Assembly (NCBI GenBank): GCA_030539175.1
Contig: JAUNSN010000007.1
Location: 1 to 39,489, forward strand
DNA length: 39,489 bases
From: a bacterium
GTDB taxonomy: Bacteria > Bacillota_I > Bacilli_A > RF39 > UBA660
Direction of reading: 5' to 3'
The notes under the pieces are model-generated. The model was not told the origin of the DNA, searched no databases, and was given only the letters and a program-made list of their open reading frames with translations. Both the position numbers and the translations under genes were made by a program. Below are positions 20,120 through 38,616 of the stretch, in pieces (position 1 is the first letter of the stretch; each line of letters opens with the position of its first letter).

Positions 20120-20294
20120 AATTCTTAATCAATAATTTCTCTAATATACTAACAATTACATACATTAAATATGACACAATCATAAGAATAATAATACCAC
20201 TAATTACTAAACTTAAATTAAATACTTGCGAACCATAAGTAATTAAATAACCAATACCCTCTTTTGAAACTAAGAATTCTCCCATTATAACTCC
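20118..20294 (-). pseudogene. 3' part of interrupted ABC transporter permease gene
   Basis: On the minus strand this reads GVIMGEFLVSKEGIGYLITY and on to KLLIKN stop, the C-terminus of an SsuC/TauC-type (BPD_transp_1) permease, with no start codon. It continues exactly from the 5' part at 29045-29658: the joined reading is SMSLIG-VIMGEF, a normal EAA-loop-distal segment. The rebuilt protein would be 262 residues, usual for the family. The break is where element 1 begins. Confidence 0.93.
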
Positions 20295-20312
20295 ACTAAT
20301 GACACTATGGGG
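20277..20312 (-). other. Attachment site attL of element 1
   Basis: Junction of host permease sequence and element. On the minus strand it reads ...TGTCATTAGT-GG-AGTTATAATGG, host to the right of GG. The GG (20294-20293) is the only stretch shared with the other junction, fitting a serine recombinase with a 2-base crossover core. Confidence 0.8.
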
Positions 20313-20318
20313 AGAAAA

Positions 20319-21521: not shown

Positions 21522-21542
21522 AATATCACCCTTTCAAGGATA

Positions 21543-21606: not shown

Positions 21607-21626
21607 TCGATTTTTGTTTAGTAAAA

Positions 21627-22973
21627 TTATGATATTTTAAATTTTATTTCAACTTCATTATTACTAATAATTACTTTATCGATTATGTGTTCTATAATCA
21701 TTCTTTGTTCTTCAAAAGTCATCATGTTCCATGTGCTTTGTAAGTTTTGTAACATTTCAAGGGATGCTATATTTTTTTGTTCATCATATTTAGATTCTGC
21801 AATTTTTAATTCCAGAGTTTCTTTTTCCTCTATCAATTCTTTTAATTTTTCTTTTGTTTCACAAGTAGCAATGCCATCTGATAAAAAGTTAATTAAATTA
21901 TCTATTTGTTTTTGCACTTTTATAAGCCTATTTCCGTATTCTTCTAGGACATTTACTTGCAATAATTCATAATTAGTTTTAAATAGGTTTTTATCTAGTG
22001 CCATAGAAAATAATGATTCATAAACAAGATCTTCAATTTCAAATGAGTCCCATCTTTTATTTTTACAATTAGGATCTTTAATAAATTTAGGTTTGCTTTT
22101 TTGCTGCGAATAGCAGTAGCATATTAATCTTTTACCCCATTTTTGATAACGATACTTAGCACCACAATTTCCACAATAAATTTTTCCTGATAATAGATAA
22201 TGCCTTGCAGTTCTTGATTTACTTCTTAGTTTATTGGTTTCAATTATTTTTTGATATAATTCTTCAGATACAACTCTCTCATGTCTTCCTTTAAATTCCT
22301 TATCTTTATATGGAATTATTCCTAAATTGGTACGACTTTTAATTCTTTTTTCAACTAGACTTTCATTCATCCCGACAATAGAGCCAATTTTAATAAAACT
22401 CATTCCACTAATATAAAGAGAAATCATTTTATGTAGCAGTTTTACCTCAGTAGGATTAGGCACTAATATGCCCAAATTTCTATCATAGAAGTAAGGAAAA
22501 GGTATTTTACCTCCACCTTTCCAAAGTCCATCTTCAGCCCTTTTTTGAATGCCAATTCTTGTTCTTTCCAGTATTGTTTCTCTTTCTAGTTGAGCAAAAA
22601 CAGATAATATACCAATCATTGCTTTTCCAAAAGGAGTAGTTGTATCAAAGTTTTCTCTTATAGAAATAAAACCTACATTATGTTTGTTAAAAACTTCTTC
22701 GATTAAATATAAAGTATCTTTTTGACTTCTTGAAATTCTATCTAATTTAAAAACAAATACACAATCTATTTTGTGATCTTTAACATCTTTTATTAATCTT
22801 TGAATATCAGGTCTATTTAAATCTTTACCACTATAGCCACCATCAATATAATAAACAAACTCTGTATATTCTTTAGCTTTAGCATAACTTAGCAAATATT
22901 CTTTTTGGGCATCAATTGAGTAACCTTCTAATTGAATATCCGTAGAAACTCTAGCATACAGTCCAGCTTTGAT
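21627..22973 (-). CDS. Serine recombinase of element 1 (start codon ATC)
   Basis: The 448-residue product has the serine resolvase catalytic domain: LYARVSTD with catalytic Ser10, GGYSGKDLNRPDIQRLI, FKLDRISRSQKDTLYLIEE, and AQLERETILERTRIG. Next come a recombinase domain (LHKMISLYISGMSFIKIG), a zinc ribbon (CGNCGAKYRY at about residue 267, and a later Cys pair) and a coiled coil. In-frame homology starts at KAGLYARVSTD, where the expected ATG is ATC (22973-22971), with AAGGAGG correctly placed 7 bases upstream. The first usual start (TTG at 22895) would remove the catalytic Ser. So initiation is at a rare ATC, or the gene is a start-codon mutant, or there is a sequencing error. It most likely integrated element 1. 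Confidence 0.85.
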   Translation of the reverse strand: MKAGLYARVSTDIQLEGYSIDAQKEYLLSYAKAKEYTEFVYYIDGGYSGKDLNRPDIQRLIKDVKDHKIDCVFVFKLDRISRSQKDTLYLIEEVFNKHNVGFISIRENFDTTTPFGKAMIGILSVFAQLERETILERTRIGIQKRAEDGLWKGGGKIPFPYFYDRNLGILVPNPTEVKLLHKMISLYISGMSFIKIGSIVGMNESLVEKRIKSRTNLGIIPYKDKEFKGRHERVVSEELYQKIIETNKLRSKSRTARHYLLSGKIYCGNCGAKYRYQKWGKRLICYCYSQQKSKPKFIKDPNCKNKRWDSFEIEDLVYESLFSMALDKNLFKTNYELLQVNVLEEYGNRLIKVQKQIDNLINFLSDGIATCETKEKLKELIEEKETLELKIAESKYDEQKNIASLEMLQNLQSTWNMMTFEEQRMIIEHIIDKVIISNNEVEIKFKIS

Positions 22974-22977
22974 ATTA

Positions 22978-23112: not shown

Positions 23113-23274
23113 GTATAGGCACCCCTATATAATTTTATTTCTTTAACTCTTAATAATGCCATTATTAGTTGTTTAATTCTATTTCGCTTATAAAAATGAA
23201 AATAATTATATAGCAATACAAACAAATAACATCTTTATCATAGATATAAATTACTTAAACATTTAGTTCATTAA

Positions 23275-23303
23275 TTTACATCTAAAAGTATACATGATAT
23301 AAT
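23275..23303 (+). promoter_or_regulatory. Promoter of the XRE-family regulator
   Basis: TTTACA (23275-23280) and TATAAT (23298-23303) with a 17-base spacer, 40 bases upstream of the ATG at 23344. It points away from the recombinase. Confidence 0.65.
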
Positions 23304-23343
23304 TAATTAACAAATAAATAATAATTTGAAAGTGAGGTATATT

Positions 23344-24045: not shown

Positions 24046-24068
24046 CTCAACTTATTGTTGAGTTTTTT
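24044..24068 (+). terminator. Terminator after the XRE regulator
   Basis: Hairpin AACTCAAC-ttatt-GTTGAGTT followed by TTTTC; 8-bp perfect stem. Confidence 0.85.
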
Positions 24069-24134
24069 CAACTCATACGTTATTGTTTTAATTTTCTTTT
24101 CCATATAACATTAATATTGAGAGGAGAAAAAGTA

Positions 24135-24833: not shown

Positions 24834-25720
24834 TGAAAAAAAAATTTATTATAATAATACCAATAATAATAGTATTAACTATTATAATATATCTACTTAT
24901 ATTTAATAATAAATCAACAGCTTTTTATTTAGAAAACGAATATTATAAAAGCAGCGATATTGTTGAAATCAAATTAAATGATTTTAATAACTTAATCGAT
25001 TCCAAAGAATCGTTTGGTATATTTATATATCAACCTATGTGTTCTACATCATCCAATTTTGAACAAGTTATATATGACTTTCAAAATCAATATCAAATAA
25101 AGTTTTTCAAAATTGCCTTTAGTTCTATAAAAGATACAAAAAATATTAACTTTTTAAAATATTATCCATCATTTATAATATACAAAGATGGGCAAATGAT
25201 AGATTTTTTAGAAGCAGATAAAAAGGAAGATACAAGTATTTATCAATCAGTTGATAGTTTTAAAGAATGGTTTACAAAATATGTAAAACTAAAAGATACT
25301 AATTATACACCTATTGATGAAAGTCAAAATCTAAATTATAGTGAAGACAATAGTAGCATTGTTGATATTTCTTTAGATAACATAGTTAGAGAAGAAAATA
25401 AAGTTAATATTTACTTCTTTTGGGGAAATGGATGTCCTCATTGTGAAGAAGAATTTGCTTTTCTTAATAGTATAGAAAAAGAATATGGGAAATATTATAA
25501 TCTATATACATTTGAGACATGGTATGATGAAGAAAATGCTAAATTGTTAAATGTGTTTGCAACAGCTATGGGAGATAAAGTAACAGGTGTCCCATATACT
25601 ATAATTGGAGATAAATCTTTCTCTGGTTTTACTAGTAGTTATGAAAATGATTTTAAAAATGCAATAATTAACCAGTATAATAATAGCTTTGATGTCTATT
25701 TTGATAAAATAAACAAGTAA
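24833..25720 (+). CDS. Membrane-anchored protein with two thioredoxin folds (CSTS and CPHC)
   Basis: The 295-residue product has an N-terminal membrane segment (residues 5-23) and two thioredoxin-like domains. The first has FGIFIYQPMCSTSSNFEQV with a single Cys70 and FLKYYPSFIIYKDG (cis-Pro region). The second has VNIYFFWGNGCPHCEEEFAFL with Cys201 and Cys204, a disulfide redox centre, and GVPYTIIGDKSFSG. It is predicted to face outside. Coupled to the rhodanese-like gene, it could reduce or accept the sulfur or disulfide from it; that is inference. Ends at the terminator at 25761. Confidence 0.85.
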   Translation: MKKKFIIIIPIIIVLTIIIYLLIFNNKSTAFYLENEYYKSSDIVEIKLNDFNNLIDSKESFGIFIYQPMCSTSSNFEQVIYDFQNQYQIKFFKIAFSSIKDTKNINFLKYYPSFIIYKDGQMIDFLEADKKEDTSIYQSVDSFKEWFTKYVKLKDTNYTPIDESQNLNYSEDNSSIVDISLDNIVREENKVNIYFFWGNGCPHCEEEFAFLNSIEKEYGKYYNLYTFETWYDEENAKLLNVFATAMGDKVTGVPYTIIGDKSFSGFTSSYENDFKNAIINQYNNSFDVYFDKINK

Positions 25721-25760
25721 ATTTATTAAGTTAAAGTTATCAACAACAAATTACCATTTT

Positions 25761-25786
25761 AAAGCAGATGAAATATTCTGCTTTTT
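25761..25786 (+). terminator. Terminator after the thioredoxin-fold gene
   Basis: Hairpin AAAGCAGA-(8-base loop)-TCTGCTTT followed by TT; 8-bp stem with a short T tract. It separates the rhodanese/thioredoxin pair from the MerR operon. Confidence 0.8.
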
Positions 25787-25847
25787 GTGTTATACAACAA
25801 TAATATATATTTTCTTACTAAAAAAAATAGAAATTTCAACATAGCAC

Positions 25848-25878
25848 TTGACTTAAAGCTTACTTTAACTTATATAAT
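25848..25878 (+). promoter_or_regulatory. MerR-type promoter with dyad operator
   Basis: TTGACT (25848-25853) and TATAAT (25873-25878) with a 19-base spacer, the long spacing that MerR activators bend into shape. Within the spacer is the dyad TTAAAG-ctta-CTTTAA (25853-25868). The sequence is close to the AdhR/NmlR type operator (CTTGACTTAAAG...). It drives the MerR gene and the three following genes, and suggests autoregulation. Confidence 0.85.
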
Positions 25879-25900
25879 GTATAATGAAAGGAGAATTTTT

Positions 25901-26347
25901 ATGTCTTATTCTATAAAAGAAATTGCTGATATGATGCAAGTAACAACATCTACAATAAGATATTGGGATAATGAAGGACTTTTACCTCATGTAAATAAGG
26001 TAAGTGGAAGAAGAGTTTTTGAAGATAAAGATTTTAAATGGTTAAGAGTACTTAATTGTATGAAAAAAATTAATATGCCAATTAAAAAAATTAAAGAATA
26101 TGTTAAACTTGCCGAAAAAGGTGATTCAACATTACAAGAAAGATATGACTTAATTTTAGAACAAAAACAGATAATTAAAAATGAAATAGAAGATTTGAAA
26201 AAATGTCTACAAGAATTTGAATATAAAGAATGGTATTATAAAACAGCAATTGAAGCAGATACAGAAAAAGTTGTTGAAAATATTACATCCAGTTGCCCTA
26301 CTTTGGAAGTTGATAAAATACCAAAAAATAAGAAAGGTGGAAATTAA
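25901..26347 (+). CDS. MerR-family regulator of the hydrolase/AKR/flavodoxin operon
   Basis: The 148-residue product has the MerR helix-turn-helix and wing (SIKEIADMMQVTTSTIRYWDNEGLLPHVNKVSGRRVFEDKD), then a long dimer helix (MKKINMPIKKIKEYVKLAEKGDSTLQERYDLI). It resembles aldehyde- or thiol-responsive regulators such as AdhR/NmlR; Cys residues occur at 51, 98 and 136 and one could be the sensor, which is unproven. ATG at 25901 with AAAGGAG. It is next to and co-transcribed with the three enzymes it likely controls; stop and next ATG are adjacent. Confidence 0.9.
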   Translation: MSYSIKEIADMMQVTTSTIRYWDNEGLLPHVNKVSGRRVFEDKDFKWLRVLNCMKKINMPIKKIKEYVKLAEKGDSTLQERYDLILEQKQIIKNEIEDLKKCLQEFEYKEWYYKTAIEADTEKVVENITSSCPTLEVDKIPKNKKGGN

Positions 26348-27337
26348 ATGAAAGAACAATTAAATTTAGTTAAGGAATGGGATAAAACATTTCTTAAAAG
26401 TGACAAAGTAAATCACAAAAAAGTAACATTTCATAATAGATATGGAATAACTTTAGTAGCCGATATGTATGAGCCAATAAATTATGATGGTAAATTACCA
26501 GCTATTGCAGTATGTGGTCCCTTTGGAGCAGTTAAAGAACAATGCAGTGGCTTATATGCACAAACTATGGCTGAACGAGGTTTTCTATCAATAGCATTTG
26601 ACCCATCGTTTACTGGTGAATCTTTAGGCACTCCAAGATATATGGCTTCACCTGATATAAATACAGAAGATTTTCAAGCAGCAATAGATTTTTTATCAAT
26701 ACAAGATAATGTTGATTCTAAAAAAATTGGAATTATTGGTATTTGTGGATGGGGTGGACTTGCATTAAATGCTGCTTCACTTGATACGAGAATTAAAGCA
26801 ATTGTTACTTCTACAATGTATGATATGTCAAGAGTAAATGCTAATGGATATTTTGATGAATTTGCTAATGAAGATGCTAGATATGAAACAAAAAAAAGCT
26901 TAAATGCACAAAGAATTATAGATTATAAAAATAATACCTATGAATTAGCTGGTGGATGTTTAGAATTACCTGTACCAAAAGAAGCACCTTTTTATGTTAA
27001 AGATTATAGTGAGTATTATAAAAAAAGAGCATATCACAAAAGAAGTTTAAATTCTAATGGTGGTTGGAATAAAATTGGTTGCATGTCATTTATAAATCAA
27101 CCTATACTCAGCTTTAGTAATGAAATAAGAAGTTCTGTATTAATGATACATGGCGAAAAAGCACATTCATGTTATTTTAGTAAAGATGCTTATAATAATA
27201 TGATACGTGATAATAAATATAAAGATAATAAAGAACTTTTAATTATTCCTAATGCAGTTCATACTGATTTGTATGATAATTTAGAAGTAATACCATTTAA
27301 TAAAATAGAAGAATTTTTTAAAGAGGCTTTTAAATAA
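26348..27337 (+). CDS. Alpha/beta hydrolase with Cys nucleophile
   Basis: A 329-residue alpha/beta hydrolase of the dienelactone-hydrolase-like group: NRYGITLVADMYEP, PAIAVCGPFGAVKEQCSG, FDPSFTGESLGTPR, then the nucleophile elbow IGIIGICGWGGLAL with Cys133 in place of Ser, and late VLMIHGEKAHSCYFSKDAY and NAVHTDLYDN (catalytic His). Members of this group often accompany MerR regulators and aldo/keto reductases. It has no membrane segment, unlike its neighbours, so it should be cytoplasmic. Substrate unknown. Confidence 0.85.
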   Translation: MKEQLNLVKEWDKTFLKSDKVNHKKVTFHNRYGITLVADMYEPINYDGKLPAIAVCGPFGAVKEQCSGLYAQTMAERGFLSIAFDPSFTGESLGTPRYMASPDINTEDFQAAIDFLSIQDNVDSKKIGIIGICGWGGLALNAASLDTRIKAIVTSTMYDMSRVNANGYFDEFANEDARYETKKSLNAQRIIDYKNNTYELAGGCLELPVPKEAPFYVKDYSEYYKKRAYHKRSLNSNGGWNKIGCMSFINQPILSFSNEIRSSVLMIHGEKAHSCYFSKDAYNNMIRDNKYKDNKELLIIPNAVHTDLYDNLEVIPFNKIEEFFKEAFK

Positions 27338-28311
27338 TGAATAAGAAAAAATTGATTATAATTATTATATTAATTTTAGTAATTATTTTAGGAATAATCA
27401 CTTATATTATGTTAAATACAAATAAAAAAGGAAGTAATAATGTGCCTAATAATGATAATGTTCAAATATTAAATATGCCTAATTATCCAAATGATATGGG
27501 CTTTGATTTTGAAACTAAAACAGCAACATTAAATAGTGGATACAAGATGCCAATAAATGGTATTGGAACTTATAGTTTAACAGGAGATACTTGTTATAAT
27601 TCTATTACTAGTGCATTAAATTCAGGTGTAAGACTTATAGATACAGCTTATATATATGGTAATGAAGAAGAAATAGGAAAAGCTATTAAAGACTCATCTG
27701 TTCCAAGAGAAGAAATATTTATAATTACCAAAATATATCCAAGTCAATTCGATAATCCAGAAGAAGCAATTCAAATGGCATTTACCAAATTAGATGTTGA
27801 GTACATTGATATGATGCTTTTACATCATCCAGGTAGTAATGATGTAAAAGCTTATAAAGCCATGGAAAAATATGTAGAATTAGGTAAAATTAGATCAATA
27901 GGTTTGTCAAATTGGTATGTTGAAGAATTAGAAGAGTTTTTACCACAAATAAATATTACACCAGCATTAGTACAAAACGAAATTCATCCATATTATCAAG
28001 AAAATAATGTTATTCCATATATACAAAAATTAGGTATAGTAGTTCAAGGATGGTATCCACTGGGTGGTCGTGGACATACAAGTGAATTATTAAATAATGA
28101 AACAATTGTAAAAATTGCTGAAAATTATAATGTATCATCTGCTCAAATAATATTAAGATGGAATTTGCAAAAAGGTGTAGTTGTAATACCTGGATCTAGT
28201 AATCCAGAGCATATAAAGGAAAATACAGAACTATATCATTTTGAATTAACAAAAGAAGAAATGGAAGAAATAAATAGTTTAAATCGTGATGAAAAACATG
28301 ATTGGTACTAA
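27337..28311 (+). CDS. Membrane-anchored aldo/keto reductase
   Basis: The 324-residue product starts with KKK and a 20-residue membrane segment (residues 6-26) then a Gly/Asn linker. The AKR (TIM barrel) follows: YKMPINGIGTYS, RLIDTAYIYGNEEEIGKAI, IFIITKIYPSQF, YIDMMLLHHPG, and IPGSSNPEHIKEN near the end. Catalytic tetrad Asp102, Tyr107, Lys132, His163. AKRs use NADPH; with a basic N-terminus the enzyme is predicted outside, where NADPH is absent, which is odd. The topology may instead be inverted or the anchor may keep it at the inner face. ATG overlaps the hydrolase stop (TAATG). Confidence 0.88.
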   Translation: MNKKKLIIIIILILVIILGIITYIMLNTNKKGSNNVPNNDNVQILNMPNYPNDMGFDFETKTATLNSGYKMPINGIGTYSLTGDTCYNSITSALNSGVRLIDTAYIYGNEEEIGKAIKDSSVPREEIFIITKIYPSQFDNPEEAIQMAFTKLDVEYIDMMLLHHPGSNDVKAYKAMEKYVELGKIRSIGLSNWYVEELEEFLPQINITPALVQNEIHPYYQENNVIPYIQKLGIVVQGWYPLGGRGHTSELLNNETIVKIAENYNVSSAQIILRWNLQKGVVVIPGSSNPEHIKENTELYHFELTKEEMEEINSLNRDEKHDWY

Positions 28312-28326
28312 AAGAAAGGAATTATT

Positions 28327-28971
28327 ATGAATCAAAAATTAATTATTATAGTTATAATTGTCGTTATTATATTAGCAATTGGTATTGGAACAACAATTGC
28401 ATTAAATAACAAAAATAAAAACCAAGACATTGATAATAATACTCAGAATAATCAAGAAAATGATGAACCACAAGAAAATCAAAATAATACAAATAATAAT
28501 CAAAGTATAGTTGTCTATTTTTCAGCAACTGGAAATACTGAAAAGATTGCAAAATATATTAGTGAAACATTAAATATTGATACTATAGAAATAATACCAG
28601 AGAATAAATATACAAGTGATGATTTAAATTATGGAAACAATAATAGTCGATCAAACAGGGAACAAAACGATAGTAATGCAAGACCAACAATTAGAAATCA
28701 AATAGATGTATCTTCTTATGACACAATTTATTTGGGTTACCCTATATGGTGGGGAACTGTTCCTAAAATAATTCTTACATTTTTAGATACTAATAATTTA
28801 GATGGAAAAACGATTGTTCCGTTTTGTACATCAGGTTCATCGGAAATTAGCACAAGTGTTAATAATTTAAGAAGTTATAATACCAATATGCAAGTAATAG
28901 ACGGCAGAAGATTTTCACCAACAGCTACCAAAAGCGAAGTTTCTACATGGTTAAATGAAATTAACAAATAA
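28327..28971 (+). CDS. Membrane-anchored flavodoxin
   Basis: The 214-residue product has an N-terminal membrane segment (residues 5-26), a disordered Asn/Gln linker to residue 60, and a flavodoxin domain: IVVYFSATGNTEKIAKYI (FMN phosphate loop 66-71), DTIYLGYPIWWGTVPKIILTFL and PFCTSGSSEISTS. Flavodoxin of this kind is a small FMN electron carrier. It is the last gene of the operon, with AAAGGA 7 bases before the ATG and a strong terminator after it. Confidence 0.9.
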   Translation: MNQKLIIIVIIVVIILAIGIGTTIALNNKNKNQDIDNNTQNNQENDEPQENQNNTNNNQSIVVYFSATGNTEKIAKYISETLNIDTIEIIPENKYTSDDLNYGNNNSRSNREQNDSNARPTIRNQIDVSSYDTIYLGYPIWWGTVPKIILTFLDTNNLDGKTIVPFCTSGSSEISTSVNNLRSYNTNMQVIDGRRFSPTATKSEVSTWLNEINK

Positions 28972-28980
28972 ATATAATTT

Positions 28981-29013
28981 AATAAAGAGATTACTAAAAG
29001 TAATCTCTTTATT
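28981..29013 (+). terminator. Strong terminator at the end of the redox operon
   Basis: Perfect 15-bp stem with arms AATAAAGAGATTACT and AGTAATCTCTTTATT around AAA, followed by T-rich sequence. It lies 30 bases before the right attachment site. Confidence 0.9.
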
Positions 29014-29024
29014 TCTTTTATTTT

Positions 29025-29060
29025 CTCTCTATACCTCTATTAGCCCGATTAAAGACATAC
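29025..29060 (-). other. Attachment site attR of element 1
   Basis: On the minus strand the permease reads TCTTTAATC-GG and then enters the element as GCTAATAGAGGTATAG, where a TAG stops the truncated permease. The GG (29046-29045) matches the GG at attL (20294-20293). Confidence 0.8.
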
Positions 29061-29658
29061 TTATATTTATTTTCAAACTACTAACTATACAATTATAACT
29101 ACTTGGAAATACTACATATCTAAATATTTGAAATTTACTAGCATTAAATGACTGTAATAACTTTATCTTTAAAGTATCTGTATTAACAAAACCAGAATAT
29201 ACAGTCATTACTGTTACTATTACTGAGATTAGCAAAGCCATTATAATAATTGAAGAATTTGTTGCTCCTGCCCATATTATTATAATTGGACCTAATGATA
29301 TTTTAGGTAGACTATTAATAATAGTTAAATAAGGATCTAATACCTTGGAAAGAAACTTATTCCACCATAATATAGTTGCAAGTAATATTCCAATAATAGT
29401 ACCTAGTAAAAAACTAATTGTTGTTTCATAAACAGTAATATATATATGATGATATAGATTAGATGTTTGATGAAGACTTATAATAGTATTTAAAACCATT
29501 TTAGGACTAGATAGAATAAAAGTATTAATAATTTCCTTATCAGCTAAATATTGCCATATAAAGATAAAAAAAGTAATAATAAATAATTGAGTTATAATAA
29601 CTAAAATCTTAGTTTTTCGCTTACTTTTCAAATAATTTTTATGTTCTACACTATACAT
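29045..29658 (-). pseudogene. 5' part of interrupted ABC transporter permease gene
   Basis: ATG at 29658 (overlapping the ATPase stop by 8 bases) reads 204 host codons of a BPD_transp_1 permease: several membrane segments, SLPKISLGPIIIIWAG (EAA-type loop) and SLKINISMSLIG, then four element-derived residues LIEV and TAG at 29029. The natural continuation VIMGEFLVS is at 20294. Co-transcribed with and downstream of the ATPase gene in the ancestral operon. Confidence 0.93.
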
Positions 29659-29986
29659 GAAAATCAATCTCTTTCCATATCTCATTATAGTATTTAGCAA
29701 ATTCAGTCGCACTTCTATTTTTAAAAGGCGTTGACGCATCAGTTAACTTAATAGGAATTATCTTCTTCACTATCGCTGGTCTTTTAGATAACACCACTAC
29801 TCTATCTGCCATGCTTATTGCCTCTGCAATATCATGAGTAACAAGAATAGCAGTCTTATTTTCTTTTTTAATTATGTTATAGACATCATCACTAACCATT
29901 AATCTAGTTTGCGAGTCTAAAGCACTAAAAGCTTCATCTAAAAGAATTATATCGGGATTTGTTGCTAATGTCCTAATTAAAGCAGT
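29651..29986 (-). pseudogene. 3' part of interrupted ABC transporter ATPase gene, also frameshifted
   Basis: Minus-strand reading is TALIRTLATNPDIIL, the segment right after the ABC signature, then a one-base deletion near 29940 (CTTTAG where CTTTTAG is needed) shifts the frame; after it comes LDEAFSALDSQTRLMV (Walker B, D-loop), VTHDIAEAISMADRVVVLS (H-loop) and the normal end. Correcting one base and joining to the 5' part at 37160-37573 gives 248 residues, normal for SsuB/TauB-type ATPases. The frameshift lies inside the catalytic Walker B region, so this gene would be dead even without the insertion. Confidence 0.9.
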
Positions 29987-30000
29987 TGGATGATTACTAA
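29970..30000 (-). other. Attachment site attL of element 2
   Basis: Minus strand reads element TAATCATCC-AACT-GCTTTAATTAGG host. AACT (29986-29983) is shared with the other junction. In the rebuilt attP the arms ATCA/TGAT are symmetric about the central AC of AACT, which I take as the crossover core. Confidence 0.75.
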
Positions 30001-30070
30001 AACCCGCGATTATGTATTTTTATTTTTTTCACTACCTTTTTGAATAAGTTCTTCTACTTTAGTTTTATAA

Positions 30071-30111
30071 CAAAAAAAGACAATTACATTTCATAATTGT
30101 AACTGTCTTTT
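30071..30111 (-). terminator. Terminator after the surface protein gene of element 2
   Basis: Minus-strand hairpin, arms of about 17 bases (AAAAGACAGTTACAATT and its near complement, 15 of 17 pairs) followed by seven T. It starts 9 bases past the stop at 30120. Confidence 0.85.
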
Positions 30112-30119
30112 ATAAAAAT

Positions 30120-32006
30120 TTAACTAAATCTTTTTTTTGTATATAATGTTACACTAATAAGCCCTAACAAACCAACACCACCAAGAATTATATAATTAAA
30201 TATACCATCAGATGTTTTAGGATTTGCTGCTTCATTCAATTTATAAGATAAAGCATATAGAGAAAATTTGTCAGATGCAAAAGTTAATTTCGTTCCATCT
30301 TCACTTACTGTACCATCAATCTTATTAACAGTATCACCATGATTATTCATTAAAAAGAATACATATCCTTTATTTTGTAAATTTTCTGGTATATCAATAG
30401 TGAAAGTTTTTGGAGTCGACAACTCAGTAATACTTAATGTATCATCACCATAATGCAATGTAAGATCAATATCAAATATTGCAACAAGTTGTTCCCCATT
30501 ACTTAACGCTTCTTTAATTTCATCAATAGCTGTTTCATTTGCTGTATCATCTAAAACAATAGGCGTTATTTCAACTACCAAAGTAGCAGTTCCTGCTTCA
30601 ATTGCATTTTTAGCATCATCAGGGAAATTAGCAATATCAGTATCAATAGCCGCTAATAACTCTGCTGGCTTAGGTGTATTAATATTAACAACAGGTGCTG
30701 TTGTAGTTTTAACTTCAATTTCTGTAATTTCTCCTGTTAGACTTGCATCTTTTATTCTAACTTCATATATTCCAGCTGAAAGATTAGTAATTGCTTCTTT
30801 ATTAGAGATAGTATTAAATGTCGTAGCACTCTTTAATTTATATTCATAAACTAAATCTGAATAAAGTCCTATAATCTTTCCATTATCTTCATTATTAGTT
30901 GCTGCAACACTAACTAATGATGGTGCTGTAATTTTCGACCAAGCTGCTGAACCATCACCACCAGTAGTATCTACAGTATTATTATTACCATAATATCCAT
31001 AAGTAGTCCAAGTATGACCATTTTTTAATAATTCAAGATGAATATTTTGATGAACACGACCAATATATTTCAATTCATCAATAGGTTTAACATTACCACC
31101 TATATTCCCTGCTGTATAAGTACCAACTAATTGATCATCAGCATTCACATAGAAATATTGAGTAACACTCTCTGGCAAACTACCTGTATAATTATAAGTT
31201 GGTGTTGAATTGCAATCAACTATTTTTACACCAAAATACGATGTAGGTGATGCATATGTCGTAGCACCAAATAAACCACCTAAATAATAAAATCTATTAC
31301 CAGCAATAGCATTTGTAAAATTTGTAGTAAACGTACCATCAAAAGTTGAATTATCAAATACAATAGCATATTTATTATTTACACCCTTATTAAATTCATA
31401 AGCAGTATCATTATCAGAAGTAGTAATTTGCCCTACTATACCACCAACAATTACATAGTATTTACTAAAATCTAAATTTTTCAAAGTAAAATCAACAGAG
31501 CTTTTAACATTCTTAAAAGTTGTCCCAGATTGAGCAAATAATACTAACCCACCCATTTGATCTAAAGATTCCATTTTTCCAGTTATAGTAATATTTTCAA
31601 ATGAGGTATTAATTGCATAATACGCAAGTGGAGCTCTCATGTTAACAGTGTCTACAACAAATTTTATGTTTTTAAACTCTGCATTTTGCACTTTATCAAA
31701 TATCATATGCCCTTTATTATCTTTTGGTACAGTTGTTGCTCCCAATTTCACCGTATAAGTAATAGTATTATTATTACCATCTAAACTTCCTGTAAAAGCA
31801 TTTGCAATAGCTGTCCATGTTTCATTAATCGTTATATTATTGGTTAATTTATAGTTGCCATCCAATGGATAATTAGCATCTACACCAATTTTAGCTAAAT
31901 CACTAGTTGAACTAATCTCAATTACTTGAGTTTCCGCATTTACATTTACTACACCAACGATTAAAAATGCTGCAAATATAAATAACAATAAACTAAATTT
32001 TTTCAT
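30120..32006 (-). CDS. Cell-wall-anchored surface protein (NPKTS sorting motif)
   Basis: The 628-residue product has a signal peptide (KKFSLLLFIFAAFLIVGVVNVNA), a repeat-rich beta-helix-like region (residues 25-330: EISSTSDLAKIG, NNITINETWTAIANAFTGSLDGNNNTITY, a GLUG-like pattern), then fibronectin- or MucBP-like modules, and a C-terminal sorting signal NPKTSD, hydrophobic ILGGVGLLGLISVTLY, and KKRFS. NPKTS is the sortase-B-like form of LPXTG. ATG at 32006 with AGGAGG upstream. Probably an adhesin or carbohydrate-binding surface protein carried as cargo; no enzyme motif seen. Confidence 0.78.
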   Translation of the reverse strand: MKKFSLLLFIFAAFLIVGVVNVNAETQVIEISSTSDLAKIGVDANYPLDGNYKLTNNITINETWTAIANAFTGSLDGNNNTITYTVKLGATTVPKDNKGHMIFDKVQNAEFKNIKFVVDTVNMRAPLAYYAINTSFENITITGKMESLDQMGGLVLFAQSGTTFKNVKSSVDFTLKNLDFSKYYVIVGGIVGQITTSDNDTAYEFNKGVNNKYAIVFDNSTFDGTFTTNFTNAIAGNRFYYLGGLFGATTYASPTSYFGVKIVDCNSTPTYNYTGSLPESVTQYFYVNADDQLVGTYTAGNIGGNVKPIDELKYIGRVHQNIHLELLKNGHTWTTYGYYGNNNTVDTTGGDGSAAWSKITAPSLVSVAATNNEDNGKIIGLYSDLVYEYKLKSATTFNTISNKEAITNLSAGIYEVRIKDASLTGEITEIEVKTTTAPVVNINTPKPAELLAAIDTDIANFPDDAKNAIEAGTATLVVEITPIVLDDTANETAIDEIKEALSNGEQLVAIFDIDLTLHYGDDTLSITELSTPKTFTIDIPENLQNKGYVFFLMNNHGDTVNKIDGTVSEDGTKLTFASDKFSLYALSYKLNEAANPKTSDGIFNYIILGGVGLLGLISVTLYTKKRFS

Positions 32007-32097
32007 TTTTTTTCCTCCTACTATCATATATATAACATATGTACTAAAAAATTTCAATTAATTTTAATAGAAAAATTTCATTTTACACTATATACTA

Positions 32098-32230
32098 ATT
32101 TTATTCTCACCTCCCAAGTATCGTGATGAAGATTTATTTGATACTAAAACTTAGACCTAAATTTGAAATATTAATAAGAGATGATGACGTAGCAAAAGTC
32201 AATCAAGTTTTTCAAGAAACATGGAAGTAA
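32098..32230 (+). pseudogene. Frameshifted gene scrap
   Basis: In one plus frame it reads PPKYRDEDLFDTKT stop; after a one-base shift the next frame reads LRPKFEILIRDDDVAKVNQ and ends with a stop at 32230. The two frames make a continuous, protein-like sequence, so this looks like the C-terminal tail of a decayed gene. The family is not recognised. No start or ribosome binding site fits. Confidence 0.5.
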
Positions 32231-32257
32231 TAGAAAAATACTTACATAATAAATTTT

Positions 32258-33883
32258 CTACTCAAAATTCCATTTTATTGTAATGTTTCTTTCATTTATA
32301 GTTTTGTTTAAAGAACCAATTTCGATTCTATTTATAAATTCATCTACTATTACTTTATTTAACTTATCAATTTGTTTATATTCCTTGAAAATTTTTAGAC
32401 TATCAGTTGTTTCATTACTATTAGTTTTAAACAAATCAATTTTTTTGTTTATATCATCTATTAATACATCATACTTATCATCAAACTTTAAATATTCATT
32501 TTGTAATATCATAAATTCACGAGCTGTTATTATTCCCTCTACACGATCTTTATATAATGTTTTTAGATATTTTTCTTTATCTAATTTTTTCTTAATCAAT
32601 GCATTTTTTTCTTTCATTAAAGAATTAATTTTATCTTGATAATTAGATTTTAAAATATTTGCATTAGAACTTTTTAATTTTTCTAAATTGTAATACTTTG
32701 AAAACATTTTATTCAGTTCTTCTATTATAATATTTTCTAAAAAGTCAAACCTAATAGATAATTTGTTAATACAATTATCATAACCATTACGAGTTGATGT
32801 ACAAACCAAATATTCATGTTTTTTAGTTGAGTTTTTCTTTAAATAACGACCACAAAGAGAACAATATACTTTACCTGAAAATATATGTATCTTTCCAGTT
32901 TTCTTACAAGCTCGTAAATTATTATTAATTTTATTTTGAACTAATTTCCAAGTATTCATATCAATAATTGGTTTGTGAGCATTTTCGATTCTTATCCAAC
33001 AATTTTTCGGTTTCTTAACAATTCTTTTGTTCTTATAACTTATAGTAGTTCTTTTACCTTGAATTAAATTACCAATATAAACTTCGTTTAAAAGAATAGT
33101 TTTAATAGCATTATGACTCCATTTTATATCCTCAATGTTTCTATCACTAATAATATTTAATTTATAACCTTTCAAATGTTTATAAAAAGAAGGACACGGT
33201 ATATTTCTTTCGTTTAATTTTTTAGCAATAGTTCCATATCCATAACCTTCTAAATATAACTCAAATATTTCTTTTACAATTTCTTTTACATCTTCATCTA
33301 TAATTAATTCATTATTATTTTTAGGATTAACTATATAACCATATGAAGCAAATGGACTAATAAATTCACCATTTTTCATTTTTACAGTAAATGCAGATCT
33401 GATATTATTAGATAAATCTTCTAAATACCATTCGTTTACTAGTCCATTGATTTGCCTAGATTTTTTATTTCCAACGTTAAAAGTATCAGCATTATCAGTA
33501 AAACTTAAAAATCTAACATTCCATTCAATAAACTTGTTATGTAAGTATTTTTCTATTACTTCCATATCTCTTGAAAATCTTGATTGACTTTTACAAAGTA
33601 CAATATCAATTTTCCCATTTTTACAATCTTCAATAAGTCTTTCAAACTCTGGTCTATAAGTACCAGCACCAGATAAATCTTCATCACAATACTCAGCAGC
33701 AATTACCCAATTTTCATGTTTTGAAACTTCTCCCATAAGTAAGTTTCTTTGATTTTTGATTGATTCGCTATCATCATTAGCACTAGTCTTATTCCTATCT
33801 TCAGCAGATAATCTTAAATAAATAGCAACACGTAGAATCTTAATTGTTTCTTTTAAAGAACTATCACCACCATTTTCAATCAT
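32258..33883 (-). CDS. Large serine recombinase of element 2
   Basis: The 541-residue product has the resolvase domain (VAIYLRLSAEDRN with catalytic Ser26, DEDLSGAGTYRPEFERLIEDC, KSQSRFSRDMEVIEKYL), the recombinase domain (ISPFASYGYIVNP, KEIFELYLEGYGYGTIAKKLNERNIPCPSFYK), a zinc ribbon (FSGKVYCSLCGRYLKK with later Cys) and a C-terminal coiled coil. Length and order fit large serine integrases of the TndX/CcrA type. ATG at 33883 has GGAG nine bases upstream; the in-frame ATG at 33961 lacks one. It is the likely integrase of element 2. Confidence 0.93.
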   Translation of the reverse strand: MIENGGDSSLKETIKILRVAIYLRLSAEDRNKTSANDDSESIKNQRNLLMGEVSKHENWVIAAEYCDEDLSGAGTYRPEFERLIEDCKNGKIDIVLCKSQSRFSRDMEVIEKYLHNKFIEWNVRFLSFTDNADTFNVGNKKSRQINGLVNEWYLEDLSNNIRSAFTVKMKNGEFISPFASYGYIVNPKNNNELIIDEDVKEIVKEIFELYLEGYGYGTIAKKLNERNIPCPSFYKHLKGYKLNIISDRNIEDIKWSHNAIKTILLNEVYIGNLIQGKRTTISYKNKRIVKKPKNCWIRIENAHKPIIDMNTWKLVQNKINNNLRACKKTGKIHIFSGKVYCSLCGRYLKKNSTKKHEYLVCTSTRNGYDNCINKLSIRFDFLENIIIEELNKMFSKYYNLEKLKSSNANILKSNYQDKINSLMKEKNALIKKKLDKEKYLKTLYKDRVEGIITAREFMILQNEYLKFDDKYDVLIDDINKKIDLFKTNSNETTDSLKIFKEYKQIDKLNKVIVDEFINRIEIGSLNKTINERNITIKWNFE

Positions 33884-34457
33884 AATAATTATCTCCAAAT
33901 ATTTGGCAATAATTATTAAGTAAGCAATTATTTTTATAAATAGTGTGATTATAACATACATCTATCATATGTCATAGTCTTCTTTCATTTGTTCTAAAAT
34001 AGCTATTATTCTAAGTAATTTTATATTAAAGTTATTTTCTTTATCTATTTCTGATAAATCACTATAAACATTATTTATATTATATTTTATTTTCACATTT
34101 TACCCCCCTTTTATTCTTATAATAAATTATATTCAAAGGGTCTTTAAGTATTTTTGTTTTTTTTAATACATTTTGGTGGGCTGATTTTATCTTATTTATG
34201 AGAATTTTAAGACATTTCTGGGTGCTATTTTAGCAGGCTGACAAACAACATTGCTAGTGGCGAGTTAGCGATAAATCAAGGATTTTCAGAAAAAAGAATG
34301 TCAGCCAATTCATTTCATGTCATACATTTGTGATAACGATTTTCAGGGCAAAATTATAATTAAAAAAACAATCATAATAATTTCTCCTTTTAAAGACACA
34401 AAAAAAGCATAATCATGAATGACTATAACTCTACGAATTAACACTACTGCTATTATA
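33884..34457. other. Long non-coding stretch between recombinase and PHP fragment
   Basis: No intact gene seen in 574 bases. Around 33965-34094 a GTG with a strong AAAGGGGGGT site is followed by a frame that breaks after four codons; a one-base change would extend it to about 43 residues, so it may be a broken recombinase-linked small ORF. Bases 34180-34350 are distinctly less A+T-rich and more complex than the surroundings, with an open plus-strand stretch (SRLTNNIASGELAINQGFSE) without a start. A perfect 9-bp hairpin TGCTATTAT-acta-ATAATAGCA lies at 34448-34469. Confidence 0.5.
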
Positions 34458-34811
34458 CTAATAATAGCACTTGATAAATCGATATGCAAGACGAAAAAAA
34501 ACGAAATTAAAAGGTGTTTTTTTCCGCTTCTTTAATGTTTCGTTTATATTATTTTTAAAAAACTTATTTTGCAATTTACTTTCAAATCCATTAATCTCTA
34601 TTCCTGGCAAGAAATTAACATCGATACCTTTCAGCTTTTCTTTCATACATGTATAATTTGAATAATTTAAAATATTATGATCAGTTTTAACTATCATGTT
34701 AACTTTAATGACAAAAATAATTTCATTTTTTATAAATTCATCAACATCAAAATTACATACATCAAATGAATCATTGGTATGAAAATGAATATCAACTAAA
34801 TTATACTTCAT
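34458..34811 (-). pseudogene. Truncated PHP-domain protein gene
   Basis: ATG at 34811 (GGGGAAG upstream) reads 117 residues. The start is a PHP metal site: LVDIHFHTNDSFD, later MIVKTDHN and FLPGIEING, as in PHP phosphoesterases, some of which are fused to ATPases in defence loci. The product ends in basic and aromatic residues (FVFFRLAYRFIKCYY) unlike the family and is far shorter than usual, so the gene is cut off. It lies directly after the restriction gene and was probably its operon partner. Confidence 0.65.
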
Positions 34812-34821
34812 ATCTTCCCCA

Positions 34822-35890
34822 CTATTTTTTATATCTAATTTGTAAATTCAGTTTAAAAAATATCCTTCCATCTTTTTCATATAATTGAACCATCTTATAT
34901 CTCTTAGAACTAGGAGTCTACAATTTAGTTTGGTTAATTAAATATTTTAAAACTTCTTGCTCAAAGTATATTAAATCAAGGACTACAACATTTCCATCAG
35001 ATTTTACTATAATTAGACCACCATTAACTTCGTTTATCCCATTTTTTATTTGGAAAAAAACCAAAACTTATTCCTTTAAAAAAATCAGATAATTTTTTAA
35101 TTGCAAATTCTTCATCTTTAAATTCATTTGTTGACAAAAATAATTCTTTTAAATTACCACTTACATCATTATAAAAATTAAGTAAAGCTTTACCTAAATA
35201 TAATGGCATATTTGAATCAACCATTTCTAAATTGTATTTAAAGCTTTCATTTGGCACATCAACAAACTTTATTTTACCACCAAATTCATATATTTTCTTT
35301 AACCCATCTCTCAATTTTGTTTTAGATTTAGATGTTGTAATTTGATTTATTAAAGCAATGTGTTCCCTTTTTAATCCTTCTATTTCATATAAAAAATCCG
35401 TTACATGACTAGCATTTAATAAAGTAGCTGGACTTCCTAAACTAGATTTTATGCTATACTTTAAAACAACTCTATCACTTATTTTTGTATCTAAAACAGT
35501 TGCTATTAAATCACTTTTAGTTTGTGAATCTGATTTCAAAAAATCTTGATCTGTCATCTTTTTTAAAATAGGATTCAATTCTTTTATCTCAAAAGCCCCT
35601 TTTCCTGAAGAAACATTTTTTATACTATTTTTAACCATCTCAATACTATTTTCTATTTCTTCAATAGAAATCATATTTTTTAATTCGTTCTGAAAATATA
35701 TTTCAACTTCCTTTTTTGAAGTTAAAATAAAATCTATTAATTTTTGTTTTTCTTTTATAGAAAGTTTTTCAACGATAAATAAATCATTACAAATTTCTTC
35801 CAACTTGCTGTCAACAATATTTAAGTTAGGGTTCTCCAAAAGAGATAATACTACATACATCTCTGACCACTCGCCTCTATTTTTACCCAT
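34822..35890 (-). pseudogene. HpaII-like type II restriction endonuclease, frameshifted and with nonsense codon
   Basis: The intact 5' part starts MGKNRGEWSEMYVVLSLLENPNL, the N-terminal pattern of HpaII-family enzymes, and runs to FGFFPNKKWDKRS stop (35024). Past the stop another frame continues the family C-terminus: NGINEVNGGLIIVKSDG, then TKL, a TAG at 34920-34918, then TPSSKRYKMVQLYEKDGR and KLNLQIRYKK stop (34824-34822). So one frameshift after PNKKW and one nonsense codon remove roughly 70 residues. It overlaps the methyltransferase stop. HpaII family members recognise CCGG; the target here is not established. Loss of the nuclease with retention of the methylase is the usual direction of decay. 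Confidence 0.85.
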
Positions 35891-36980
35891 AAAAATCATC
35901 CAACCTTTCTATCATATATTTTGCCATTTCTTGAATTACTGGAATTGAAACTGAATTACCAAACATTTTATACTTTTGTGTTTCACTTATTTCATGTGGA
36001 AAAGAAAATTTATCTTCTCCATTTTCAATAAAAGCATAATTAATAAATCCTTGTAATTTACCCCATTCTATTGGAGTCATATGTCGTATTCCCTCTTTAT
36101 TAATTGGATTATTTCTTCCAACTAAGATGTTATCATATTCCGAATTGTATTGTCTTATTAAATTTCTTTCTTTTCCAGAACCACCAGTAGCCATAATTGT
36201 GTTAGACACTGGATTTTTTCCTTCATTTACAATAATATAACCAAAGCCAGATTTCGCTTCTGAATGATTTGTTTTATGATTTTTTAAGGTTGTCAATAAT
36301 CTTTCTGATAAATAAAATTTTGAATCAACTTTATTTTCGATTAAATCGTACAAATTATTATAAATTATTTTTTCTCCATGTGTTGGTAATTTTGGAAAAA
36401 TATAATTTTTCGGAATATCTTCTTTTCTAAAACCCATAATAAAAATACGAGCTCTTTTTTGTGGTATTCCAAAGTCTTTTGTTGTTCTTACAAGATCTTT
36501 TGAATTGAAAATAACCTCATTACCTTTTACTTCAACTCCAACAATTTTATAATCTAAAAAATCCAATGTTCTAATAATAGTTTTAAAAGTCTCACCTTTA
36601 CTATGTTTCAACAATCCCTCAACATTTTCCAACATAAAAGCTTTTGGTTTTGTTCTTGATATTATATCAGCAAGATCAAAGAATAAAGTACCTCTTGTTT
36701 GGTCTTGGAATCCTTGTTGTTTTCCAGCAATAGAAAATGCTTGACAAGGAAATCCTGCCAATAAAATTTCATAATCAGTATCTTCAACTTTTTGTTTAAA
36801 ATCTTCAGATGTTACATCATTAAAGGCATCATCGCCATATAAATGCTTGTATGTTAAACAAGCGTATTTATCTATTTCTGCTGACAATACATTTTGAAAT
36901 CTTCCCGTCATTTCATAACCTTTTCGAATACCACCTATACCAGCAAATAAGTCTATGCACTTATATATTTTTCTTGACAT
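35883..36980 (-). CDS. dcm: DNA (cytosine-5) methyltransferase
   Basis: The 365-residue product has the m5C-methylase motifs: I (CIDLFAGIGGIRKGYE), IV with catalytic Cys79 (AGFPCQAFSIAGKQQGF), VI (FMLENVEGLLKH), VIII (QKRARIFIMGFR), and C-terminal IX/X (MTPIEWGKLQGF, KYKMFGNSVSIPVIQEMAKYM). ATG at 36980; GGTGGTGATG upstream, and the in-frame ATG at 37016 is not preferred. It is complete. Its restriction partner is broken, so it is now an orphan methylase that would leave 5-methylcytosine marks on the chromosome. Confidence 0.95.
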   Translation of the reverse strand: MSRKIYKCIDLFAGIGGIRKGYEMTGRFQNVLSAEIDKYACLTYKHLYGDDAFNDVTSEDFKQKVEDTDYEILLAGFPCQAFSIAGKQQGFQDQTRGTLFFDLADIISRTKPKAFMLENVEGLLKHSKGETFKTIIRTLDFLDYKIVGVEVKGNEVIFNSKDLVRTTKDFGIPQKRARIFIMGFRKEDIPKNYIFPKLPTHGEKIIYNNLYDLIENKVDSKFYLSERLLTTLKNHKTNHSEAKSGFGYIIVNEGKNPVSNTIMATGGSGKERNLIRQYNSEYDNILVGRNNPINKEGIRHMTPIEWGKLQGFINYAFIENGEDKFSFPHEISETQKYKMFGNSVSIPVIQEMAKYMIERLDDFYG

Positions 36981-37033
36981 AACATCACCACCTATTATAA
37001 ATAATACCAAAACCATCTTAAATGTATATAAAT

Positions 37034-37062
37034 ATTATAACATGAAAAAAGTGTATATTTAC
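37034..37062 (-). promoter_or_regulatory. Extended -10 promoter of the methyltransferase gene
   Basis: Minus-strand TGTTATAAT (extended -10, TATAAT at 37039-37034) with only a poor -35 (GTAAAT) 17 bases upstream. It lies about 55 bases before the ATG at 36980. Confidence 0.45.
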
Positions 37063-37144
37063 ATTATTTTGTAATACCTTTGTTTAAAAAACATTTATGT
37101 TGTAGTTATAAAGTAATAGTTACTAATAATTATTATTTTGTTGG

Positions 37145-37175
37145 TTAATTTAATCAAAGAGTTCTTTGTCTCATA
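37145..37175 (-). other. Attachment site attR of element 2
   Basis: Minus strand reads host ATGAGACAAAG-AACT and then enters the element as CTTTGATTAAATT. The TGA in it stops the truncated ATPase at 37154. AACT (37163-37160) matches attL (29986-29983). Confidence 0.75.
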
Positions 37176-37573
37176 CCACCAGATAAATTCTTAGGATATT
37201 TTTTAGCAAACTCCTTTAATCCATATGTTTCTAATAAACTTTCTACATAAGATTTTGTATCACAGTTTAATTTCCCCTCCACCTTCAAACCAATTAAACA
37301 ATTGTCAATTATATTTAACCAATCAAATAAACAATCATTTTGGGGCATATAAGAAATCTTAACATTATTCGAATTAATAATTACTCCTTCAGACTGTTTA
37401 TCTAAATTACATAATATTGATAGTAATGTTGATTTACCACATCCAGATGGTCCGACTATGGCAACTATTTCTCCTTCTTTAATATTAAGACTTATATTTC
37501 TAATTGCTTCTATTTCACAATTAGAATCATGATATAACTTTTTTATATTTTTTATTACTAAAATATCTTTCAT
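37160..37573 (-). pseudogene. 5' part of interrupted ABC transporter ATPase gene
   Basis: ATG at 37573 reads 138 host codons: VAIVGPSGCGKSTLLSILCNL (Walker A), KISYMPQNDCLFDWLNIIDN (Q-loop) and NLSGGMRQRT (ABC signature), then CTT TGA of the element. The rest (ALIRTLATNP, Walker B) is at 29651-29982. It belongs to the nitrate/sulfonate/taurine (SsuB/TauB) type and follows the binding-protein gene by three bases. Confidence 0.95.
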
Positions 37574-37576
37574 AGC

Positions 37577-38569
37577 TTACTTAAAATTAGTCGTGTATAT
37601 TAAATCATCATATGGTGCCATTTGTTTTAATTCTCCACTGGCAATCATTATTTCTTGAATATGATTCCATTCATCTTTTGTTATACTTATATCAGTTTTC
37701 CATGCATTACCATTTTTATACCTTTCTACTAATAAAGTTAAATCATTAATTGAAGTATCAGGAAAAAACTCGACTATTGATTTAGCAATAGTTTCACTGT
37801 CATTATTGGCAACAAAATCTAATCCCTTTTGAACTGCATTAGAAAAACTCTTAATTATATCAGGATTTTGCTCTATATAACTACCACGAGCGTGATAAAC
37901 TGTATATGGTACTTCTCCACCTAATTCGCCAATATATGCAACTACATGGCCAAAACCAGCTTTTTCCACACTTAAAGCATTAGGTTCAAACAACGTAACG
38001 AAATCTCCAGTACCACCTATAAAAGCCCCTTCCATTGCAGCAAACGCAACTGAAGTATCAATAGTTAAATCATTTTTCGGATCTATACCAGCTTCTCGCA
38101 AAGCCCATTCAAATGTCATCTCTGGCATACCACCTGCTCTACCACCAATAACATATTTCCCTTTTAAATCATCAAGTGTAAAATTATCATACTTTTCTCT
38201 TGAAACAAGAAAAGTTCCATCCCTTGCCGTTAATCCAGCAAATGTCTTAACATAATCTTTTTCTCCACTTTGGTAAACATAAATAGTCGCCTCACTTCCA
38301 GAAAAACCTATTTGCACATCATTTGACAATACTGCTGCCATAACCTTATCCGCACCTGGCGTAAGTGTAAGTTCAATATTTATACCTTCATCGGCAAAAT
38401 AACCTTGACTAATTGCTACATATTGTGGAGCATAAAAAATAGTATGCGCTACTTCTGCTACTTTTATCGTCGTTAAATCATCTTGTTTATCATTATTTTT
38501 TATAATAACTATTGTTGAAAAACAAATAATTATAGCTAAACAAATAAGCGATAAAATAACTTTTTTCAT
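37577..38569 (-). CDS. ABC transporter substrate-binding protein (NMT1/THI5-like, SsuA/TauA type)
   Basis: The 330-residue product has a membrane or signal segment (residues 5-25) but no clean lipobox, then the NMT1/THI5-like fold: HTIFYAPQYVAISQGYFADEGINIELT, GADKVMAAVLSNDVQIGFSGSEA, GKYVIGGRAGGMPEMTFEWAL and GTGDFVTLFEPNAL. Ligand class is nitrate, sulfonate, aromatic or thiamine-precursor-like; the sequence alone does not tell. ATG at 38569 follows AGGAGG; ATG 38587 overlaps that site. The gene is intact but its ATPase and permease are broken, so it is an orphan. A 14-base dyad TTATACTTGTATAA (38617-38630) lies upstream. No TPP or other riboswitch was recognised. Confidence 0.9.
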   Translation of the reverse strand: MKKVILSLICLAIIICFSTIVIIKNNDKQDDLTTIKVAEVAHTIFYAPQYVAISQGYFADEGINIELTLTPGADKVMAAVLSNDVQIGFSGSEATIYVYQSGEKDYVKTFAGLTARDGTFLVSREKYDNFTLDDLKGKYVIGGRAGGMPEMTFEWALREAGIDPKNDLTIDTSVAFAAMEGAFIGGTGDFVTLFEPNALSVEKAGFGHVVAYIGELGGEVPYTVYHARGSYIEQNPDIIKSFSNAVQKGLDFVANNDSETIAKSIVEFFPDTSINDLTLLVERYKNGNAWKTDISITKDEWNHIQEIMIASGELKQMAPYDDLIYTTNFK

Positions 38570-38616
38570 AAAATCCTCCTTTATCATTTTTATTATATTC
38601 TAAAATAGCAATAATG

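Follow-up and report, generated by a model that had tools for sequence, protein, structure and literature searches.

The window, that is, the whole stretch of 39,489 nucleotides analysed, contains a C5-cytosine DNA methylase gene that is adjacent to and overlaps the open reading frame of an HpaII-family nuclease, as in a Type II restriction-modification pair (Table 1). The two genes lie in an insert, designated element A, between collinear halves of an ABC transporter ATPase gene that are ~7.2 kb apart. They share the insert with a truncated open reading frame, a serine recombinase gene, an inverted relic of a recombinase gene, and a gene for a 645-amino-acid protein. Element A qualifies as an integrative element, with a large serine recombinase and a target gene that is split with a short shared core.

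TABLE 1 Features of the restriction-modification pair, elements A and B, and the split ABC transporter operon in the window
Feature	Position	Strand	Evidence
ABC operon binding protein, not split in the window	37577..38587	-	PF09084 (NMT1)
ABC ATPase, 5' part, residues 1-138	37160..37573	-	Domain match and comparison of halves
Element A, ~7.2 kb, between the ABC ATPase halves, ACT at both junctions	29984..37159		Both gene halves, junctions
C5-cytosine DNA methylase, intact, 366 codons including stop, start MSRKIYK	35883..36980	-	PF00145 positions 1-323 of 324, E 2.4e-75
HpaII-family nuclease, truncated open reading frame of 291 aa, overlaps methylase end	35024..35899	-	PF09561 positions 1-290 of 359
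Lesion 1, frame change right behind PNKKW	35038..35049	-	Sequence, second PF09561 match, profile of relatives
C-terminal nuclease remnant, out of frame	34822..35049	-	PF09561 positions 288-359, E 4.4e-14; 61-64% identity to L015-L019
Lesion 2, TAG in nuclease remnant, ~39 codons past lesion 1	34918..34920	-	Second PF09561 match and profile of relatives
Truncated open reading frame, 117 aa, behind nuclease, PHP-like by eye only	34458..34811	-	Open reading frame
Large serine recombinase of element A	32258..33961	-	Resolvase, Recombinase, and Zn-ribbon domains; clade of ATPase-138 recombinases
Inverted relic of recombinase gene beside intact recombinase	32117..32256	+	Inverted repeats I1 (70 nt, 89%) and I2 (37 nt, 81%) versus 33530-33693
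645-aa protein in element A, surface-protein-like by eye	30120..32057	-	Open reading frame; no Pfam match
ABC ATPase, 3' part, ~residue 139 to end, open to end	29651..29983	-	Comparison of halves
ABC permease, 5' part, residues 1-214	29038..29679	-	Comparison of halves
Serine recombinase of element B	21627..22895	-	Resolvase and Zn-ribbon domains; clade of permease-site recombinases
ABC permease, 3' part, residues 210-268, split off by element B (~20301-29037)	20124..20300	-	Comparison of halves

The program that listed open reading frames placed the methylase start 12 codons earlier, at 37016. The truncated open reading frame behind the nuclease had no match in Pfam, NCBIfam, or PHROG. Between it and the recombinase gene is a block (34130-34400) without a long open reading frame; a repeated insertion sequence was considered for this block and dropped because the block is single copy in the genome. 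Rfam searches at gathering thresholds returned nothing in the window and one tRNA in five operon loci.

A preliminary description, made from the letters alone, had read the pair as an intact methylase next to an HpaII-like nuclease that was broken by a frameshift just after PNKKW and by a later TAG, with the remaining frames still spelling the C terminus of the family. Domain and profile searches agreed with this reading on each point. The nuclease open reading frame, which ends in GFFPNKKWDKRS directly before its stop codon, matched RE_HpaII (PF09561) with an E value of 1e-46 and a score of 160.3 bits (Pfam cut-off, 25), and the match to the methylase domain covered all but the last model position. 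When the genome itself was searched, a second PF09561 match, to the positions missing from the first, was found in another frame at 34831-35049 (52.1 bits), with one TAG within it. A profile built from five intact relatives recovered three collinear pieces in the nuclease region: positions 4 to 287 in the frame 35027-35908, positions 287 to 326 at 34921-35067, and positions 328 to 357 at 34825-34917. Chance is excluded as the source of these pieces because they are collinear and because of their E values. The gene is thus a broken member of PF09561 and not a complete enzyme in a single frame. At the first lesion both readings overlap on the bases for the conserved W and the N-G that comes next in the nearest relatives, and a run of six A adjoins the frame change. 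The TAG reads as a second, separate change.

Relatives of the nuclease were collected with alignment-based scans, which confirmed at least 540 relatives in genome_contigs (the best 80 of the at least 540 were kept) and 12 in viral_contigs; further loci came from genomes of the class and from plasmids. A single window protein as the query confirmed no relative in genome_contigs or viral_contigs, whereas the alignment-based scans succeeded. A six-frame scan found a full-length, single-frame nuclease in 94 of 101 non-window loci, some of them probably duplicates (L007 and L021, for example, had identical scores), and an end like that of the window in none. It had been proposed that the truncation would be refuted if the family normally ended at WDKRS, and these full-length loci show that it does not. 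Among the remaining loci, L008, L011, and L023 are one locus with a nuclease broken near its N terminus, the nuclease of L099 runs off the contig, L106 contains a fragment, and neither L009 nor L010 had a nuclease match in the six-frame scan. The nucleases of the relatives were 341 to 384 amino acids long. In 93 of 96 loci examined (window counted) a methylase was located on the same strand within 1.5 kb.

Among the matches listed, the five nearest intact pairs were L015 to L019, which have the same methylase-nuclease order as the window and methylases 75 to 77% identical to that of the window. The likeness of the nuclease to that of L007, which is accompanied by a different methylase, had suggested a swap of methylase and nuclease. 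This was rejected because in L015 to L019 the nuclease and the methylase nearest to those of the window occur together. The nucleases of L007, L020, and L022 were 46 to 47% identical to the nuclease of the window and their adjacent methylases only ~30% identical, so related nucleases pair with different methylases. In six loci (L039, L045, L046, L062, L066, and L102) methylase and HpaII-family nuclease were in one open frame of 638 to 761 codons, and these are apparent natural fusions. In the genome of the window (95.8% complete) a second relative of the methylase was not found; L259 contained a distant methylase relative, the only other one in loci L242 to L281.

The part of the nuclease that was lost is strongly conserved. 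An alignment of 66 of the 94 full-length nucleases had 17 invariant and 32 nearly invariant columns, and 15 of these 49 fell in the lost tail. In the predicted structure of the intact relative L016 (pLDDT, 94; pTM, 0.91) the lost part consists of strands and a helix. A Foldseek search of the PDB with this model gave no match at E values of ≤0.001, the top hit being HinP1I at 0.15, and searches of PDB sequences with the nuclease, alone and as a profile, gave no restriction enzyme among the matches. Structural re-alignment placed HinP1I (Z, 6.9) and MspI (Z, 6.8) first, with unrelated chains at 4.4, although a Z score under 8 may reflect just a common arrangement, according to the caveat of the re-alignment tool itself. 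The aligned model residues were 1 to 352 for HinP1I and 1 to 350 for MspI, and the lost tail is within this range. MspI cuts CCGG. Residues K128, D130, S149, I150, K151, and S152 are common to the window nuclease and the five intact relatives; they precede the first lesion and are kept. We take this K-x-D ... S-I-K-S pattern to be the catalytic core. Since the catalytic-looking residues are kept and the structural matches are weak, loss of function is something that we infer. However, because the lost tail holds so many of the most conserved positions, the nuclease has probably lost its fold and its ability to cut, and the loss of the nuclease proposed in the preliminary description is judged probable.

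Three other accounts of the broken gene were considered. An intact nuclease might only look broken as the result of assembly or sequencing errors: the lesions are known from the assembly, and the six-A run beside the frame change is a plausible place for a miscall. However, there are two separate lesions within ~40 codons, one of them a stop codon, and the neighboring methylase has none. Furthermore, because the two readings overlap at W-N-G, a homopolymer miscall of one base cannot alone reconcile the frames, and such errors are a very unlikely explanation. It is also quite improbable that the 291-amino-acid protein still cuts, either alone or in combination with a C-terminal fragment produced separately. 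Retention of the conserved K-x-D ... S-I-K-S stretch would speak for activity, but the conserved positions and confidently modeled secondary structure that are missing, from a region that aligned to HinP1I and MspI, speak against it, and the remnant that would have to supply them is itself interrupted by the TAG. The short A run might also suggest a programmed or phase-variable frame change that at times yields full-length nuclease. This seems extremely improbable, as the later TAG would still end translation and such a break is absent from 94 of the 101 relatives scanned.

The nuclease thus appears to have been broken by two genuine lesions, and these look recent relative to the age of the gene. 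The N-terminal part of the nuclease was 49 to 53% identical to L015 to L019, and the out-of-frame remnant, at the identity given in Table 1, has not degenerated. The same two parts were 57% and 63% identical in a control pair of intact nucleases at a similar distance (L016 versus L020). The end branch of the window was 0.8 in the nuclease tree and 0.3 in the methylase tree. The sister group was shorter in both trees, and selection may already have been somewhat relaxed before the lesions arose. Neither the ATPase halves nor the permease halves have a lesion, whereas the nuclease inside element A has two. There are two possible reasons: decay of the nuclease may have begun before the element arrived, or selection may still act on the split ATPase and permease genes.

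The preliminary description had also proposed a CCGG-like target. Counts of CCGG were compared with expectations from tri- and dinucleotide counts in samples of 254 kb of the small, 1.29-Mb genome of the host, 55 to 80 kb per non-carrier of the nuclease family, and 62 to 100 kb per carrier. In the host, 13 CCGG were observed versus 56.1 expected (54.9 for one strand), an observed/expected ratio of 0.23, the lowest of the 256 tetranucleotides. CCGG was below expectation in 18 of 21 host stretches (Poisson tail, 5e-12), and the window contained none. Among ten relatives of the same bacterial family without a nuclease match, the ratio ranged from 0.47 to 1.98, and CCGG was never the most depleted tetranucleotide. 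It was the most depleted in 5 of 13 other carriers (G420 [L015], 0.04; G424 [L019], 0.14; G421 [L016], 0.13; G426 [L022], 0.20; and G121 [L008], 0.17). The proposed target was thus supported in part: CCGG was depleted in the sampled host DNA, but some carriers do not fit, as CCGG was more weakly or not depleted in six of them (G427, 0.41; G425, 0.65; G422, 0.80; G428, 0.98; G423, 1.05; and G280, 0.69). The ratio for CTGG/CCAG, which was 1.19 here, 0.81 to 1.22 in the ten non-carriers, and 0.73 to 1.24 in the 13 other carriers, does not separate deamination from restriction avoidance. In the samples (L170 to L179) of two carriers with intact HpaII-family nucleases, G304 (1.57) and G197 (2.45), CCGG was the most over-represented tetranucleotide (rank 256).

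The available portion of the study by Rusinov et al. (PMC4687349) reports that the recognition site is avoided in roughly half of these cases, with long-resident systems showing this more frequently, and that CCGG is over-represented in Helicobacter with CCGG systems. The pattern across carriers fits this account. It is possible, though on balance doubtful, that the CCGG shortage is unrelated to the pair, being either a trait of the lineage or the trace of another, lost system. The two carriers with over-represented CCGG and two moderately low non-carriers (G015, 0.47, on 4 observed versus 8.5 expected, and G007, 0.69) would be compatible with this explanation. In addition, avoidance is known from genomes that now have no such system, and Rusinov et al. 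interpret it there as the mark of systems since lost. However, with the host counted, CCGG was the most depleted tetranucleotide in 6 of 14 carriers versus 0 of 10 non-carriers (one-sided Fisher P, 0.022, with genomes counted regardless of kinship), 3 of the 5 nearest intact pairs are in genomes with ratios of 0.04 to 0.14, and the genome of the window is without a second relative of the methylase. The shortage is therefore better read as involving this pair: the imprint makes CCGG specificity and former activity of the pair plausible and probably dates from past activity of this system or a similar one. Should the element be a recent arrival in the host, the imprint would be older than it and would have to stem from an earlier stay of the same or a similar system. 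In one other genome (G121), a broken HpaII-family nuclease (L008) is likewise next to an open methylase frame, and CCGG is the most depleted tetranucleotide.

Considered together, these observations are probably best explained by a Type II restriction-modification system of the HpaII family, carried on a ~7.2-kb serine-recombinase element, that most likely recognized CCGG and that appears to have lost the last fifth of its nuclease through recent lesions, the frame change at the conserved W-N-G and the TAG. The remaining methylase is probably an orphan that places m5C at CCGG, and the shortage of CCGG would be the imprint of former activity. The preliminary description had also linked the pair to post-segregational killing; because the pair is on an integrated element, any such killing upon its loss would have stabilized that element and not a plasmid.

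The pair itself belongs to a known restriction-modification family, of which it is a broken representative, and its decay is ordinary. HpaII-family systems (PF09561 with a C5 methylase) share with the window the nuclease family and the methylase-then-nuclease order on one strand, and intact pairs annotated as HpaII family are present on plasmids of Lactococcus petauri and Acinetobacter pittii. In contrast, the nuclease of the window is broken and the pair is on a chromosomal recombinase element. The likeness to the lost-system traces described in the available portion of PMC4687349 is a site avoidance that outlasts the nuclease; unlike those traces, the window still has the broken nuclease and the intact methylase. 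The loss of a restriction system would thus have been caught midway, on a delimited element and with the presumed site still avoided, and the system would allow measurement of how long a CCGG imprint lasts. Four findings go beyond the preliminary description: that the pair is on a recombinase element, that the ABC operon is split, that the host has a CCGG imprint, and that the decay looks recent.

The site occupied by element A is one of several in the ABC operon. In a survey of 98 genomes of the bacterial family, each another genus by tally, a binding-protein match was found in 77. The binding protein was split on one contig and strand in 19 of the 77, near residue 80, 153, or 206; in six more genomes, outside these 19, the halves were on different contigs (G007, G016, G021, G463, G464, and G467). 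The inserts of all 19 genomes were examined; they were 3.0 to 13.3 kb long, each contained a serine recombinase, and G447 had two of them. Splits in the ATPase were near residues 138 and 195, and those in the permease were near residue 207, for a total of six sites: the binding protein has three, the ATPase two, and the permease one. The three genes are undivided in other genomes, such as those of L280 and L281.

When 34 recombinases were placed in a tree, exactly one branch matched each of the six sites. This requires five changes, the minimum, whereas shuffled site labels required a mean of 20.6 changes and were as low in 0 of 200 shuffles. Taken singly, the two sites with two rows each were weak (values equally low in 7 and 6 of 500 shuffles). 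Site labels were assigned by the 5' permease part near the recombinase for L273, L274, and L275 and by the 5' ATPase part for L271, these being the sole parts of the split gene within those stretches. The tree left out pieces at locus ends in L250, L252, L254, L257, L261/L279, and L272 and one L272 row that duplicated an L249 row. Close relatives of the window recombinase (E ≤1e-100) were found in 16 of the 98 genomes, and 12 of these 16 had an ATPase fragment ending or beginning near residue 138, on the same contig in 10 (exceptions, G302, G432, G437, and G471). In G431 there were two ATPase pieces on opposite strands. Element A is thus located at the ATPase site at which the same recombinase clade occurs in other genera. 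Loci of other genera that are split at the same ATPase codon had a GTT-type core at the junctions.

These results provide good support for the view that the ABC operon is a family-wide docking array with six or more attachment sites, each served by a separate serine recombinase clade. This unusual landing strip for many mobile elements is the part that a specialist would not expect, and six recombinase clades from many genera, at sites a few hundred bases apart, are a natural set of site-specific recombinases. In the titles and abstract openings of the limited selection of open-access literature searched, the ABC operon was not met as an integration site. As described in the available part of the study by Durrant et al. 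(PMC10083194), diverse serine recombinases converge on one conserved target gene, such as that for prolyl isomerase; its main text does not contain the words "ABC transporter." That convergence is on one conserved site, whereas in the ABC operon six sites are distributed over three genes and each is used by a different clade.

The gene halves were open frames up to the junctions. Stops had been reported in several survey rows, but re-examined pieces were open from the junction (in G002, for example, residues 147 to 333 included a TGA and residues 150 to 333 were open). Given these open and collinear halves, precise excision of the elements would be the boldest interpretation; the transporter would then be switched by mobile elements, and the cargo, including defense genes such as the restriction-modification pair of the window, would ride on the switch. 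This is speculation, and we consider it unlikely. The docking array nevertheless raises the question of whether the interrupted transporter is restored by excision. Split genes with readable halves, as for element A, are also described in the portions available of reports on developmentally excised elements, including SPbeta in spsM (PMC4191935), skin in sigK (PMC5025042), and the heterocyst elements (PMC4874684). Regulated excision is a feature of the SPbeta and skin type, whereas element A is known from its sequence, through the two gene halves.

The cargo was scanned as 83 of 89 listed open reading frames, after removal of binding-protein pieces and one recombinase. The 83 proteins included arginine-deiminase and carbamoyltransferase enzymes and HipA-like, RhuM, AAA_21, and macro-domain proteins, and some matched defense-candidate models. 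At binding-protein residue 153, the elements in L242, L243, and L248 were ~3 kb long and consisted of a recombinase and one other open reading frame of at least 110 amino acids, which was HipA-like.
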